The notes beneath the pieces were generated by a model. The model worked only from the letters and a program-made list of their open reading frames with translations. It did not search any database and was not told the DNA's origin. The position numbers were made by a program, and so were the translations under genes. 64,000 nucleotides of DNA from Syntrophomonadaceae bacterium (GTDB taxonomy: Bacteria > Bacillota > Syntrophomonadia > Syntrophomonadales > DTU052), in the NCBI GenBank assembly GCA_012729505.1, contig JAAYDA010000005.1, positions 1 to 64,000 on the forward strand, written 5' to 3'. Of the stretch, positions 31,858-48,573 are shown one piece after another. Numbering within the stretch: position 1 is the stretch's first letter; each line of letters starts with the position of its first letter.

Positions 31858-32089
31858 CTAAATCCTTACTTTCCGCCTAACAAGCGTTTTTTCGTCCGTA
31901 ATAATCAAAACCCGGAAAAGATTCTCTTGCCGGATAATATAGCATCTGCATATGACGATTCCAGGATCATTTTACGCTGATCCATGCTAATTTTATATGA
32001 TCTTTATGGTTATTCAGACACTGGTACTTTAAGATATTTTTCGGTTCCCATCTGCCTCTCGTCCCCCTGTTTCCCCCGTCCCCCCGCTT

Positions 32090-32166
32090 CACCTCTCTCC
32101 TAACTCCTCTCACCTTACACCTTACACCTCTCGCCTCACGCCTCACGCCTCTCGCCTCTCGCCTCA
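32090..32166. repeat. imperfect heptamer/CT-rich array (TCACGCC/TCTCGCC units)
   Basis: ctcgcctcacgcctcacgcctctcgcctctcgcctcacc, read directly. Confidence 0.85.
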
Positions 32167-32973
32167 CCTATCATACAATTCAGCATGGGCTTTTGATACA
32201 ATATCTGCTATATCCAGGGCAGATACCTCAGTCAAGGCTGATTTCGTAAGATGAAGAAAATATTCAATGTTCCCCTGCGGTCCCTTTATCGGCGAAAAGC
32301 ATATCGACAATGGAAAAAGGCCAAGTGATTCGGCCTGAACCGCTAACCGCTCCAATACTTCCCGGTGAATCTCAGCATTGCGAACTACTCCTCTTTTTCC
32401 AACCTGCTCCCTGCCCGCCTCAAATTGAGGCTTGACCAGAGCCACCACTTCCCCGCATTCATTCAACAGCTGAGAAATCACAGGCAGAACCAGCTTTAAT
32501 GAAATAAAGGCCACATCAATCAATACTAAATCCATTTTCTCGGGCAAATCTTCGGGATTCACATGACGGATATTAGTTCGTTCCAAAGTCGTTACCCGCT
32601 GATCCTGACGCAGCTTCCAATCCAACTGGCCATAGCCTACATCTACAGCATAAACCCGTTTAGCGCCTTGCTGCAATGCACAGTCAGTAAATCCGCCTGT
32701 AGATGCTCCAACATCAAGAACTACCTTATCATTAAAATCCACCTGGAAAGCCTCTATTGCCCCCATAAGCTTAATTCCCCCGCGACTGACAAAATGGGGG
32801 CCATCCTGTCCTTCCACATAAAGCTCCGCCGTATCCGGGATTTTCTGTCCGGGCTTCTCTATCCGCCGGCCATCGGCAAATACCTGTCCTGCCAGAATAA
32901 AGGCCCGCGCCTTTTCCCGGCTGGGTGCCAGACCCTTTTCATAAATCATAACATCAGCCCGGGTACCAGCCAT
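32164..32973 (-). CDS. tlyA: TlyA family rRNA methyltransferase/hemolysin
   Basis: S4 domain plus FtsJ-like domain (LDVGASTGGFTDCALQQGA). Confidence 0.92.
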   Translation of the reverse strand: MAGTRADVMIYEKGLAPSREKARAFILAGQVFADGRRIEKPGQKIPDTAELYVEGQDGPHFVSRGGIKLMGAIEAFQVDFNDKVVLDVGASTGGFTDCALQQGAKRVYAVDVGYGQLDWKLRQDQRVTTLERTNIRHVNPEDLPEKMDLVLIDVAFISLKLVLPVISQLLNECGEVVALVKPQFEAGREQVGKRGVVRNAEIHREVLERLAVQAESLGLFPLSICFSPIKGPQGNIEYFLHLTKSALTEVSALDIADIVSKAHAELYDR

Positions 32974-32974
32974 T

Positions 32975-34864
32975 CTATATCCTCCCGATCATCCGATTTT
33001 TCTTAAGCTCCGGCCATCTTTCTATAATTTGCCGGCGCACACCCCCGGGGGTAAGCTGCAAATCATGCCAAAGAATATCAAGATCACCGTGTTCAACAAA
33101 TTGATCCGGGATACCCATGTTCAGAACTTCGGGCTGATGACTTATATTGCTTAAACTCTCTAAAACAGCATCTCCAAAACCACCGATCAGGACATTATCC
33201 TCTAAAGATACCACTCTGCCGCAACGAATTGCCCAGGATGTAATAAGGTCTACATCCAGCGGCTTTACGAACCGGGCATTTATCACCGCAGCTCGAATCC
33301 CTGTTTCCTGCAGGCTAAGAGCCGTGTCTAATGCAGTCTTAACCATTCTGCCCACCGCCAGCAACAGCACTTGATCACCTTCTCGCAGCAGCACTGCCTG
33401 CCCGGGCGGGATAAAATCAGGTGTCTTCTTAACCTCTACCCCTTCCCCGCTTCCCCGCGGATAACGGACTGCAGTCGGTGCTTCATACTGAAGTGCCGAG
33501 TTCAGCATATCGTTTAATTCATCTTCGTTGGCCGGGGCCATTATGGTCATGTTGGGGATTTGGCGCAGATAGGACAGATCAAAAACTCCATGGTGGGTGG
33601 GACCGTCCTCGCCTACCAGACCGGCCCGATCTATAGCGAAAACCACCGGCAGATTCTGTAAGCAGACATCGTGGACGATCTGATCAAAAGCTCTTTGCAA
33701 AAAGGTGGAGTAGATGGCCACCACCGGCTTTAACCCTCCGGAAGCCATGGCTGCCGCCATAGTCACCGCATGCTGCTCACATATGCCCACATCAAAAAAT
33801 CTGGTTGGGTATTCATCGGCAAATTGATCAAGCCCAGTTCCACCGGTCATGGCCGCCGTAATCCCTACCAGGTCTTTCTCTTCTTCCGCCTTGCGGACCA
33901 TAAATTCTCCGAAAACTTGGGTATATGTTTTGGCGCCGGACTTGAAAGGTCTGCCTGTACTTATATCAAATGGGCCAATACCATGAAACTGGTCAGGATT
34001 ATTCACGGCCGGCAAATAACCTTTACCCTTTTCGGTCATCACATGAATCATAACCGGTCCTTTAATGAAACGAGCCTTCTGGAAAACCATCAGCAAGTCT
34101 TCCAGGTTATGTCCATCAATGGGTCCCAAATATGTAAAACCCAATTCTTCAAAGAGAATCCCGGGGACCACCAAATACTTTACTACGTCCTTTAATTTCC
34201 CCGCTACCCGGAGCAGATTCTGCCCTATGCCGGGAATGCGCAAGAAAGCCTGTTCAACTTCTTCCTTGTGCCTGAAATAAGCCGGGTCCATCCTCAGTCT
34301 GCTCAAATAGCCCGACATGGCACCTACATTAGGGGATATAGACATGGCATTATCGTTTAAGACCACCGTAACATCCAAAGCCAGGTGACCCGCATGATTA
34401 AGGGCTTCAAAGGCCATTCCGCCTGTTAGGGCCCCGTCACCTACGACAGCAATCACCGAATTCTTTTCACCCTTGGCATCACGGGCCAAAGCAAACCCTA
34501 CTGCAGCTGAAATCGATGTGCTGCTGTGGCCGGTGTTGAATGAGTCATAAACACTCTCTTCTGATTTAGGGAAGCCGCTTAAACCCTGATATTGTCTAAG
34601 GGTAGAGATTTGCTCCTGTCTGCCGGTAAGTATTTTATGGACATAGCTTTGATGGCCTACATCCCATATTATTTTATCCACAGGTAGCTGGAAGACATAG
34701 TGCAAGGCCAAAGTCAGTTCAACCACCCCTAAATTAGCCGCAAGATGGCCCCCGTTAGAGGCTACGGTATTAATAAGGATATCCCTGACCTCCCGGGCCA
34801 AGTCCTTTAAACGTGACGGCGGTATTCTTTTTAAGTCCGCCGGCGACTGAATTGTTTCTATCAC
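32975..34864 (-). CDS. dxs: 1-deoxy-D-xylulose-5-phosphate synthase
   Basis: VGDGALTGGMAFEALNHAGH, DRAGLVGEDGPTHHGVFD. Confidence 0.96.
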   Translation of the reverse strand: MIETIQSPADLKRIPPSRLKDLAREVRDILINTVASNGGHLAANLGVVELTLALHYVFQLPVDKIIWDVGHQSYVHKILTGRQEQISTLRQYQGLSGFPKSEESVYDSFNTGHSSTSISAAVGFALARDAKGEKNSVIAVVGDGALTGGMAFEALNHAGHLALDVTVVLNDNAMSISPNVGAMSGYLSRLRMDPAYFRHKEEVEQAFLRIPGIGQNLLRVAGKLKDVVKYLVVPGILFEELGFTYLGPIDGHNLEDLLMVFQKARFIKGPVMIHVMTEKGKGYLPAVNNPDQFHGIGPFDISTGRPFKSGAKTYTQVFGEFMVRKAEEEKDLVGITAAMTGGTGLDQFADEYPTRFFDVGICEQHAVTMAAAMASGGLKPVVAIYSTFLQRAFDQIVHDVCLQNLPVVFAIDRAGLVGEDGPTHHGVFDLSYLRQIPNMTIMAPANEDELNDMLNSALQYEAPTAVRYPRGSGEGVEVKKTPDFIPPGQAVLLREGDQVLLLAVGRMVKTALDTALSLQETGIRAAVINARFVKPLDVDLITSWAIRCGRVVSLEDNVLIGGFGDAVLESLSNISHQPEVLNMGIPDQFVEHGDLDILWHDLQLTPGGVRRQIIERWPELKKNRMIGRI

Positions 34865-34880
34865 CGGTTATCACCTTCTT

Positions 34881-35014
34881 ATAAAGTAAGACTTGATTCA
34901 GGTGGAGTTTTAACTCCATCTGAATCTTAGTCGCACGAATTCAGGGACTTAGCCGCCCTTGGGCACCCGCCTCCCATAGAGGCGGGGGTCTTAGGGCGGG
35001 TTAGTCATCGGATT
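34881..35014. repeat. 134-bp structured repeat, copy A
   Basis: two hairpins; near-identical to 36212-36345 and 48440-48573. Confidence 0.9.
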
Positions 35015-35039: not shown

Positions 35040-35603
35040 TCACTTCAGAATCCGGATCCCCGTATGGTCGTCCAGCCACCGTAAAAACCGGCCTAAGCGA
35101 AAAATAATTGAATTGGCATGATTTATGGCTATTCTTTTGCCAACCGTCTTGCCCCCAACTGTAATCGCCGCAATAATGCTGGTCATTGCCGCTCCAAGAA
35201 GAACAGTATCAGTTAAGGAAAACTGGGTTGCCAGGGTAAATACGATAGAGGCACCCATTGCTCCGCTCAAGGTGCCAGAAATATCTCCCACCACATCTGC
35301 TGTCAGATTAGCAACAAGGTCAGCATTGCGAGCTAAGTTCGCTGCCTCTATTGCCCCCGGAACCTTTTTGGCTGCCATAGCATTATAGGGAACTACATTT
35401 GCTGCCGCAGCCGCTGTTCCAATGGCATCAGCTGCTATCCCTAAAAATACAACCAGGATCAGGGCCAACAAAGATAACCATACACTTTGGATCACCTCAA
35501 TAAGGGACTCCATTCCCAGGCTGATAGTCAACCCGATTACAAAAGTGAACGAAGCAATCCATAAGGCGGGTTTTACTATATTATTGTCAGTAATTCTGGC
35601 CAA
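35040..35603 (-). CDS. oapA: OLE-associated membrane protein A-like (CorB/DUF21-like)
   Basis: 187-aa multi-TM protein, TTG start with GGGGTGA RBS; between the OLE candidate and dxs. Confidence 0.8.
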   Translation of the reverse strand: MARITDNNIVKPALWIASFTFVIGLTISLGMESLIEVIQSVWLSLLALILVVFLGIAADAIGTAAAAANVVPYNAMAAKKVPGAIEAANLARNADLVANLTADVVGDISGTLSGAMGASIVFTLATQFSLTDTVLLGAAMTSIIAAITVGGKTVGKRIAINHANSIIFRLGRFLRWLDDHTGIRILK

Positions 35604-35629
35604 AAATTCACCCCATGAAAGAATATAAT

Positions 35630-36186
35630 GGAGGTTGCCCTCTGAGTAAACCCTGTGACTTAGGTCCAGCAGGCTTTCCCAATAAACATCCTGTTTGTTG
35701 CCAAACAGGCGGTTTCCCTTTACGTTTAATCCACAACGTCACCGTATGTGGGGCTGAATTACCACTTAGTGCACACTTTAATCCCCAGAGGACCGTATCA
35801 AGACACGCAGTCTAGGAGTTTTCCTCGACAACCTACACCGACTTCTAGCCTCTTTTGCAGCATAGGTTTCAGAAAAGAAAGCGGTACCGTGGCCACCGGT
35901 TTCCACTTCTTCACCAATCATCCGCCTACACCACTCAAGGCAGGCTACACTGCACCCAGCTTCCTACCAGATACAGGTTTTCACGAAGGCCAAAGCCCCC
36001 GAGCCTCCACAGGTGGGGGGTCAGTACCCGCATGCCATTGCAGACCGCCCCGACACCCTTAACTTCCAGCACCAACCCCCAACTGGGCGTCGGAAGCTGA
36101 CACCAGAATCTTCATCGATGTGCCCGTGACGGATTTTTAGGCCCGCCTTCAAAGCCGGTGAGATTGACTAGAATACTGCAACCTCC
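35630..36186 (-). ncRNA. ole: OLE (Ornate Large Extremophilic) RNA candidate
   Basis: ~557-nt G/C-rich structured non-coding segment; ends pair (GGAGGTTGC / GCAACCTCC); located directly upstream of oapA-like gene and dxs as in known OLE loci. Confidence 0.82.
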
Positions 36187-36203
36187 TCTAATTCTAATTC
36201 ATA

Positions 36204-36212
36204 ATTATAGCA
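36204..36212 (-). promoter_or_regulatory. extended -10 (TGCTATAAT) upstream of the OLE RNA candidate
   Basis: minus strand TTTATGCTATAATTATGAATTAGAATTAGAGGAGGTTGC. Confidence 0.65.
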
Positions 36213-36345
36213 TAAAGTAAGACTTGATTCAGGTGGAGTTTTGACTCCATCTGAATCTTAGTCGCACGGATCCAGGGACTTAACTGCCCTTGGGCACCCG
36301 CCGCCTATAGAGGCGGGGGTCTAATGGCAGATTAGTCATCGGATA
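36212..36345. repeat. 134-bp structured repeat, copy B
   Basis: same two-hairpin element as copy A. Confidence 0.9.
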
Positions 36346-36455
36346 AATTATTAATGACCAACACGGAAAGTCATTGTACCCGCCCAGGGCCAAAAAGTCA
36401 ATGGGATTTTGGAAGTGATGTTACCTATTTCCTGACTGAACCCCGTTCTCCATAA

Positions 36456-36522
36456 GAAGTTCGACGCTCCACGTCGAACCAAGCGAGGAGCACAAATCTC
36501 TTAACAAGATTTGGCTTCCGCC
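36456..36522. repeat. 67-bp palindromic repeat, copy 1
   Basis: gaagttcgacgctccacgtcgaaccaagcgaggagcacaaatctcttaacaagatttggcttccgcc; two hairpins. Confidence 0.85.
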
Positions 36523-36662
36523 AGCCTCCCGCCTAACGTTCTTTATCTGCGTTAATCATATTAGATCTACGTCTTGCGCTCCCCTTTTCCCCTCTCGCCT
36601 CACCCCTCACCCCTCACGTTCTCCGTTCCCCCGTTCTCCCGTTTAGGGAATAAGGGATTAAG

Positions 36663-36729
36663 GAAGTTTGACGCTCCACGTCGAACCAAGCGAGGAGCAC
36701 AAATCTCTTAACAAGATTTGGCTCCCGCC
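36663..36729. repeat. 67-bp palindromic repeat, copy 2
   Basis: gaagtttgacgctccacgtcgaaccaagcgaggagcacaaatctcttaacaagatttggctcccgcc. Confidence 0.85.
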
Positions 36730-36801
36730 TGCCGTTCCCCATTCGCCTTTCGCTTTTCGCCTCACCCCTCACCCCTTTCTCCTTTCTAGTTTAAACCCCA
36801 T

Positions 36802-36829
36802 AAAAAAAGGGCTCTGGTGAGCCCTTTTT
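36802..36829. terminator. intrinsic terminator after the EF-G paralogue
   Basis: AAAAAAAGGGCTCTGGTGAGCCCTTTTT, functional in either direction. Confidence 0.85.
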
Positions 36830-36843
36830 GGTCTGTTTATTTC

Positions 36844-38856
36844 TTAATCCCTTTTTGCCTTGGCGATAACCTCTTCGGCCACCTTCGGGGGTGCTTCCTC
36901 ATAATGGTCGAATTCCAGCTTATATTTGCCTCTTCCCTGGGTAATGGCTTTTAAATCAATACTGTAACGGAGTACTTCCTTGTATGGCACCTGGGCTTTA
37001 ATTACCTGGTTTTTGCCTTTCGGCTCCATACCCAAAACCCGGCCCCGCTTACTGTTCAAATCACCGATTATGTCACCCATGAACTGTTCGGGGATTTCTA
37101 CTTCAATATTGCATATGGGTTCCAGTATAGCCGGATTAGCCTGTTCAACACCTTTTTTGAAGGCCAAAATTGCCGCCAGCTTAAAGGCCATTTCCGAAGA
37201 GTCAACAGAGTGATATGAGCCGTCATAGAGAGTTGCCTTCAGGTTGGTAACCGGATATCCTGCCAGGACACCTTCCGGCAATGCCTCACGAAGTCCTTTT
37301 TCAACGGCAGGAACATACTGTTTGGGAACCGAACCGCCAAATAGCGCCTCACCGAATACGAATTCCTCTTCAGAAGGCTCCAGCCTAAGCCATACATGCC
37401 CGTACTGCCCATGTCCGCCGGATTGCTTTTTATGCTTTCCTTCCACCTGGACCTGTCCGCGAATAGTTTCGCGGTAAGGAATCTTCAACTCTGCCGTTTT
37501 GACTTCAACCCCGAATTTGCGGTTCAGACGCTCAATTATAATGTCACTGTGGCTTTCACCCATAGTTGTCAAGATAGTCTGCTTGGTTTCCACATTCTTT
37601 TCCAGGCTGATGGTAGGATCCTCTTCCATCAGTTTCTGCAAAGCGCTGCCCAGTTTGTCCTCATCACCCTTGGCTTTGGGCTCTATAGCAGTTCCAAGAT
37701 TAGGTACAGGAAACTCAATTGGCTCAATTTCCTGTGGATTAGACTTAATGGTCAATATATCACCGGTAGTAGTGTCTGCCAGCTTGGCCACAGCCACAAT
37801 ATCTCCGGTATTAGCTTCCGGTACCGCCTGCTGCTCCTTACCCCTCATAACCAGAAGTCCATTAATTTTTTCTTCTTTTTCTTTAGTGGCATTATAGACA
37901 ACAGAATCAGCCTTAAGCTTGCTCTGCACCACTTTCAAGAAATTCAGGCGTCCAATATAAGGGTCGGCATTAGTTTTGAAAACCAGAGCCGCCAGCGGTT
38001 CCTTGTCCTTGCCCTCGGCGACCTGGTCCGGTGAAGCCATACAGTCCACAATGAAATCCATAACCGGCAATACGCCAATGTTACTGGTAGCCGAGCCACA
38101 GAAAACAAATACCACTGCCCCTTTAGAAGCAGCCTCAGCAATCCCGGCCTTGATTTCATCATCAGAGAGCTCTTCTCCCTCCAGGTATTTGGATAAAAGG
38201 TCATCATTGCCCTCAGCTGCCGCCTCAACCAACTGTTCTTTATATGTTTCAATATCCCCCATCATTTCTGCGGGGATCTCTTCTTCCCGATACTTGCCGT
38301 CCGATCCGAAAATTAATGCTTTCATTTTGAGCAGGTCAACTACCCCTTTGAAGTCAGCTTCTGCTCCAATTGGAATCTGAAGCGGCACAATCGTTCCAGA
38401 CAGCTTGTTGTGCATATCGTCCAAAGCTTTTTCAAAATTAGCATTCTCTCGGTCCATTCGGTTAATAAACGCAATCTTGGGGAGGTTTTGTGTTTCTTCC
38501 CAAAAAATTTCGGTCTGCACCTCTACCCCGGCCACGGCTGAAACAACCACCAAAGCATTCTCGGCCACTTTTACTGCGCCTCTAACTTCTCCCAGGAAAT
38601 CAGCAAAACCAGGAGTGTCCAGAATGTTGATCTTGGTATCCCGGTATTCGCAGGGAATCAGACTGGTGCTTATACTGATTTTCCTTTTGATTTCTTCGGG
38701 CAGAAAATCAGAAACGGTGTTGCCATCATCAACCCTGCCCAATCTGCCGGTGACTCCTGTGTTATAGAGCATAGCCTCCGCCAGTGAGGTCTTTCCGGCG
38801 CCTCCATGTGAAATAAATACTATGTTTCTAATTTGGGAAGTTGGGTATACCTTCAT
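36844..38856 (-). CDS. elongation factor G-like GTPase (EF-G paralogue)
   Basis: SHGGAGKTSLAEAMLYNTG, DTPGFADFLGEV, NRMDRENANF. Confidence 0.92.
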   Translation of the reverse strand: MKVYPTSQIRNIVFISHGGAGKTSLAEAMLYNTGVTGRLGRVDDGNTVSDFLPEEIKRKISISTSLIPCEYRDTKINILDTPGFADFLGEVRGAVKVAENALVVVSAVAGVEVQTEIFWEETQNLPKIAFINRMDRENANFEKALDDMHNKLSGTIVPLQIPIGAEADFKGVVDLLKMKALIFGSDGKYREEEIPAEMMGDIETYKEQLVEAAAEGNDDLLSKYLEGEELSDDEIKAGIAEAASKGAVVFVFCGSATSNIGVLPVMDFIVDCMASPDQVAEGKDKEPLAALVFKTNADPYIGRLNFLKVVQSKLKADSVVYNATKEKEEKINGLLVMRGKEQQAVPEANTGDIVAVAKLADTTTGDILTIKSNPQEIEPIEFPVPNLGTAIEPKAKGDEDKLGSALQKLMEEDPTISLEKNVETKQTILTTMGESHSDIIIERLNRKFGVEVKTAELKIPYRETIRGQVQVEGKHKKQSGGHGQYGHVWLRLEPSEEEFVFGEALFGGSVPKQYVPAVEKGLREALPEGVLAGYPVTNLKATLYDGSYHSVDSSEMAFKLAAILAFKKGVEQANPAILEPICNIEVEIPEQFMGDIIGDLNSKRGRVLGMEPKGKNQVIKAQVPYKEVLRYSIDLKAITQGRGKYKLEFDHYEEAPPKVAEEVIAKAKRD

Positions 38857-48439: not shown

Positions 48440-48573
48440 ATAAAGTAAGACTTGATTCAGGTGGAGTTTTGACTCCATCTGAATCTTAGTCGCACGGATC
48501 CAGGGACTTAACTGCCCTTAGACACCCGCCGCCTATAGAGGAGGGGATCTTAGGGCAGATTAGTCATCGGATA
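48440..48573. repeat. 134-bp structured repeat, copy C
   Basis: same element as 34881-35014 and 36212-36345, more degenerate inner hairpin. Confidence 0.9.

Follow-up and report, generated by a model that had tools for sequence, protein, structure and literature searches.

The minus strand of the window, the 64,000-nt stretch of contig JAAYDA010000005.1 of a Syntrophomonadaceae bacterium that was analyzed as a whole, carries a confirmed, intact, and typical example of a well-described RNA class. With a probability of about 0.96, it is a complete and intact ole gene that is accompanied by oapA in the usual ole-oapA-dxs setting of Bacillota and that would act as an OLE ribonucleoprotein (RNP) in the manner proposed below. 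This reading is carried by the RNA family, the covarying structure, the homology and predicted fold of OapA, the presence of OapB and OapC, the gene order, and the promoter box. An Rfam scan of the whole window places the OLE RNA at positions 35615 to 36200 of the minus strand (586 nt). It matches RF01071 from end to end (model positions 1 to 616) with a score of 479.2 bits and an E value of 1.5e-137, the gathering score being 50 bits, and it is the sole Rfam match above the gathering score in the window and the only OLE copy in the 2.45-Mb, 80-contig genome. The initial annotation had named a search with this covariance model as the test that could refute an OLE assignment, and the outcome is decisively positive. 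The RNA segment of about 557 nt that it described is real, far beyond chance, but this length corresponds to the stretch enclosed by the two arms of the terminal helix. Because the whole RF01071 model is matched, the RNA is assigned by its sequence as a full-length OLE, and it belongs to none of the described variant types (PMC11332333). Its score lies within the range of those of intact relatives, the invariant nucleotides and loops are retained in the alignment with these relatives, and P7 does not reach the length of the Rfam consensus. Natural OLE RNAs are known to vary in P7 and P8. OLE, for which to our knowledge no biochemical activity is known in any species, is among the largest and best-conserved bacterial RNAs of this kind, and its correct annotation in anaerobic Bacillota is hence useful, while the instance found here leaves the general picture of OLE unchanged. 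A 2024 count lists OLE from 2,822 Bacillota genomes (PMC11332333).

As initially annotated, an open reading frame of 187 amino acids (35040 to 35603, minus strand) follows directly after the RNA on the same strand and precedes dxs (32975 to 34864, minus strand; PF13292, 5.3e-122). It begins with a TTG codon 12 nt past the end of the Rfam match, and a putative ribosome-binding site, GGGGTG, can be read 5 nt upstream of this start (35609 to 35614, minus strand). The proposed OapA homology holds: judged by homology and a predicted fold, the protein is OapA, a four-helix relative of CNNM/CorB proteins. It is only 37 to 64% identical to the proteins encoded beside OLE in related genomes, and its homologs adjoin OLE across the phylum. 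The gene is intact and keeps all invariant residues, including the DxxxD motif (D103-V-V-G-D107; codons at 35283 to 35297, minus strand), which is invariant in the protein alignment and distinctive of OapA (PMC11332333). An AlphaFold model (pLDDT of 82) shows four long predicted membrane helices (residues 7 to 37, 41 to 67, 94 to 128, and 133 to 161), two short helices, and a C-terminal helix. The six best PDB fold matches of this model in Foldseek are all CNNM/CorB/CorC magnesium transporters, with probabilities of 0.90 to 1.00 and weak E values of 0.055 (the best) to 0.97; no other PDB fold match exceeded a probability of 0.1, and the best-matching structures are MtCorB (7m1t/7m1u) and a bacterial CorC (7cfg/7cff). 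A PDB sequence search with the protein found no match, and searches of Pfam and NCBIfam with the protein alone gave weak or no matches. The earlier description of the protein as DUF21/CorB-like is borne out by the family, of which 19 of 31 members match Pfam CNNM (best E value, 1.1e-6), and by the fold, but not by its own Pfam CNNM/DUF21 match, which is below the cutoff (E = 0.0089). The predicted fold best matches the membrane domain of MpfA, CorB, and CorC, and OapA differs from these proteins by being without CBS and CorC_HlyC domains.

The genes on the minus strand, as identified with Pfam, run in the order EF-G-type GTPase (36844 to 38856, minus strand), OLE, oapA, dxs, FtsJ/TlyA, NAD kinase (nadK), ArgR, RecN, SpoIVB, and Spo0A, and the order from EF-G to Spo0A is identical in the sister genomes G001, G002, and G004. 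The neighborhood of dxs, recN, and spo0A named in the initial annotation is thus present, and ole lies beside oapA within a cluster of fundamental genes (dxs, argR, recN, and spo0A), which is the classic ole-oapA-dxs arrangement of Bacillota. The interval that separates ole from the EF-G gene (36420 to 36843) contains a second, patchy family of interspersed repeats (GAAGTTCGACGCTCCACGTCGAACC...) with dozens of partial matches in the genome. A low-complexity repetitive open reading frame located between nadK and the FtsJ gene (31967 to 32167; VRREARGVRREARGVR...) is probably no gene but an array of simple sequence.

A putative ole promoter is formed by the extended -10 box TGCTATAAT (36204 to 36212, minus strand), which is conserved upstream of OLE. 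The motif TGNTATAAT (TGnTATAAT) precedes OLE in 27 of 31 genomes, compared with 1 of 240 control stretches, and in these 27 genomes it mostly lies 24 to 31 nt before a conserved GCAGTAT, a nearly constant spacing; it is also present upstream of the OLE of Oceanobacillus. The occurrence of a near-invariant extended -10 box at a fixed distance from P1 in distant lineages supports the independent transcription of ole. Since the ole gene of Halalkalibacterium halodurans has already been reported to have its own promoter (PMC9723947), this conservation extends known work. A distal promoter-like site, TTGACT-17-TACAAT (36373 to 36401, minus strand), aligns with TTGACG...TAGAAT/TAAAAT in three sister genomes.

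In the window, the TGCTATAAT box is retained exactly despite a neighboring insertion, a 131-nt interspersed element (the INTERSPERSED element) that is bounded by TTTAT and has 41 near-complete copies in the genome. The copy at 36212 to 36342 (minus strand) lies between the distal site and the extended -10 box, with TTTAT on both sides, the last T being the T of the TG in the box; when it is removed, the sequence around the promoter matches that of three sister genomes in almost every alignment column, which identifies it as an insertion. A second copy (34881 to 35011, minus strand) separates oapA from dxs, two genes that lie very close together in the sister genomes, and a third lies at 48440 to 48570 (minus strand), with 38 further places in the genome. 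The two copies flanking OLE-oapA are 91% identical, have the same orientation, and belong to different subtypes. The sister genus lacks the element; three genomes from a different genus of the same order have 6 to 10 copies of it, with about 79 to 85% identity. As RNA, it has a very stable predicted fold with two arms (z = -7.9), and Rfam at a loose threshold returned only chance matches for it. Its ends, with no inverted repeats and two hairpins, recall non-autonomous IS200/IS605-type elements. The one IS200-type Y1 transposase gene of the genome lies at the end of a contig that has no copy of the element and so cannot be linked to it, and no autonomous partner was found in the genome. It is conceivable, though on balance doubtful, that this sequence is a mobile element not described before, structured and non-autonomous, and that two of its insertions rewired ole-oapA by severing ole from the distal promoter and dxs from oapA; if so, the genome would offer a natural experiment on whether the extended -10 promoter alone suffices for ole. 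The near-invariant promoter box, and a genome with a natural insertion that parts this promoter from upstream elements, may help specialists.

With the element so close to the promoter, expression could have dropped or been altered. That this insertion left behind a decaying or silent OLE copy is very unlikely, even though the extended -10 box is now split from the distal promoter and decayed OLE-oapA pairs exist, as in genome G076 (an OLE of 170 bits and a disrupted oapA beside dxs): the RNA considered here is full length, scores 479 bits like its intact relatives, and keeps its invariant nucleotides and loops, oapA retains all invariant residues, and the box is exactly preserved. It is scarcely credible that OLE-oapA is the cargo of a composite element mobilized by its flanking direct repeats. 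The unit does stand between two same-orientation copies that are 91% identical, but the repeat is dispersed over 41 genomic copies, the flanking copies are of different subtypes, and G001, G002, and G004 have OLE-oapA between EF-G and dxs without repeats, which means that the pair is older than the elements at this site; a mobile cassette was rejected on the basis of these repeat-free loci. The chance that the segment is instead a structured RNA of another kind, or that it is protein coding, is negligible, since the plus-strand open reading frames that overlap it (66 to 104 amino acids) face a match to OLE only, at E = 1.5e-137, and conservation that tracks RNA base pairs. These reading frames, at 35615 to 35815, 35748 to 36062, and 35855 to 36100, are spurious, as the initial annotation had supposed.

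The intact OLE reading is further borne out by covariation. In an alignment of the window OLE with 30 full-length OLE RNAs of related genomes (64 to 83% identity), to which the Rfam structure plus P1 was applied, 86.3% of the cells are paired, compared with 76.4 ± 0.3% in shuffles, and both-sided compensatory changes occupy 601 cells, compared with 203 ± 14. Both-sided changes affect 93 of 156 pairs, a number equaled in 0 of 500 shuffles, and sliding the 3' partners by 1 to 3 columns lowers the pairing to 40 to 47%. The RNA has the approximate length of 600 nt and the covariation-supported conserved structure by which OLE is recognized. The 9-bp terminal helix proposed initially exists: GGAGGTTGC (36186 to 36178), the 5' arm of P1, pairs with GCAACCTCC (35638 to 35630), the 3' arm, on the minus strand, and the outer 6 bp covary in relatives (AAAGGT/ACCTTT, GGAGGT/ACCTCC, and GGTGGT/ACCACC), but the inner three pairs involve the first 3 bases of the 3' arm, which the Rfam model uses in another helix, so that the true P1 here is about 6 bp. 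For the more distant relatives, the alignment places the P1 arm one base out of register, and some of its pairs were consequently counted as broken in the covariation tally; read directly, GGTGGT pairs with ACCACC in these relatives. The A-rich P4 loop, GCCC of P5.1, UGGC of P6.1, and the palindromic P9 loop GGCC are present and strongly conserved. In reported cryo-EM models, OLE dimerizes through its P4, P5.1/P6.1, and P9 loops (PMC12265935), and by this published role, these loops are putative dimerization contacts here. The P5 region, with the k-turn expected as the OapC site, is conserved in the OLE alignment at the level of sequence.

The search of the genome for oapB and oapC suggested initially was successful, and both homologs are encoded away from ole. 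The OapB homolog (104 amino acids) was missed by a search with the KOW family and located by its position between map and infA; it matches PDB entry 7k9b, "OLE-associated protein B" (E = 2.3e-13). The OapC (YbxF) homolog (84 amino acids) is encoded between rpoC and rpsL and matches YbxF (3v7e; E = 9e-16). The genome encodes one MpfA-type protein (C55; 432 amino acids) with CNNM, CBS, and CorC_HlyC domains, in agreement with published reports that OLE hosts as a rule carry at most one such protein, or none.

Published work describes an OLE dimer, its binding by OapC and OapB, its anchoring to the membrane by OapA, and roles in helping cells adapt to Mg2+, cold, ethanol, and poor carbon sources in H. 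halodurans and in other studies (PMC12265935, PMC9723947, and PMC11332333). By analogy with these reports, from which the RNP assembly, membrane location, and physiology are inferred, the extended -10 promoter that immediately precedes ole would most likely drive its transcription, perhaps together with the distal promoter, and transcription would continue into oapA. The transcript would fold into the OLE structure and dimerize through the conserved loops, OapC and OapB would bind the RNA, and an OapA dimer would hold it at the membrane, where the complex may aid adaptation to stresses, including high Mg2+, as in H. halodurans. The locus shares with the H. halodurans ole and RF01071 the full-length sequence and structure, the adjacent oapA, the encoded OapB and OapC, a promoter of its own upstream (putative here), and the proximity of dxs, argR, recN, and spo0A. 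It differs in the below-consensus length of P7, the EF-G-type gene upstream, and the 131-nt elements beside the promoter and between oapA and dxs.

Of 81 genomes, 65 combine OLE with OapA, 4 encode OapA but no OLE, and 12 lack the two; OLE never occurs by itself, so that OapA is found in all 65 OLE-bearing genomes; in three of the four OapA-only genomes, the oapA match lies less than about 200 nt from the contig start. The relative Oceanobacillus bengalensis has OLE directly before oapA. In G065 (L129/L130) and G074 (L132/L133), OLE and oapA are on separate contigs, away from the contig ends, with oapA still beside dxs and ole elsewhere. In G076, the decaying OLE (L131:9343-10308) is followed by oapA broken into two frames, still before dxs.
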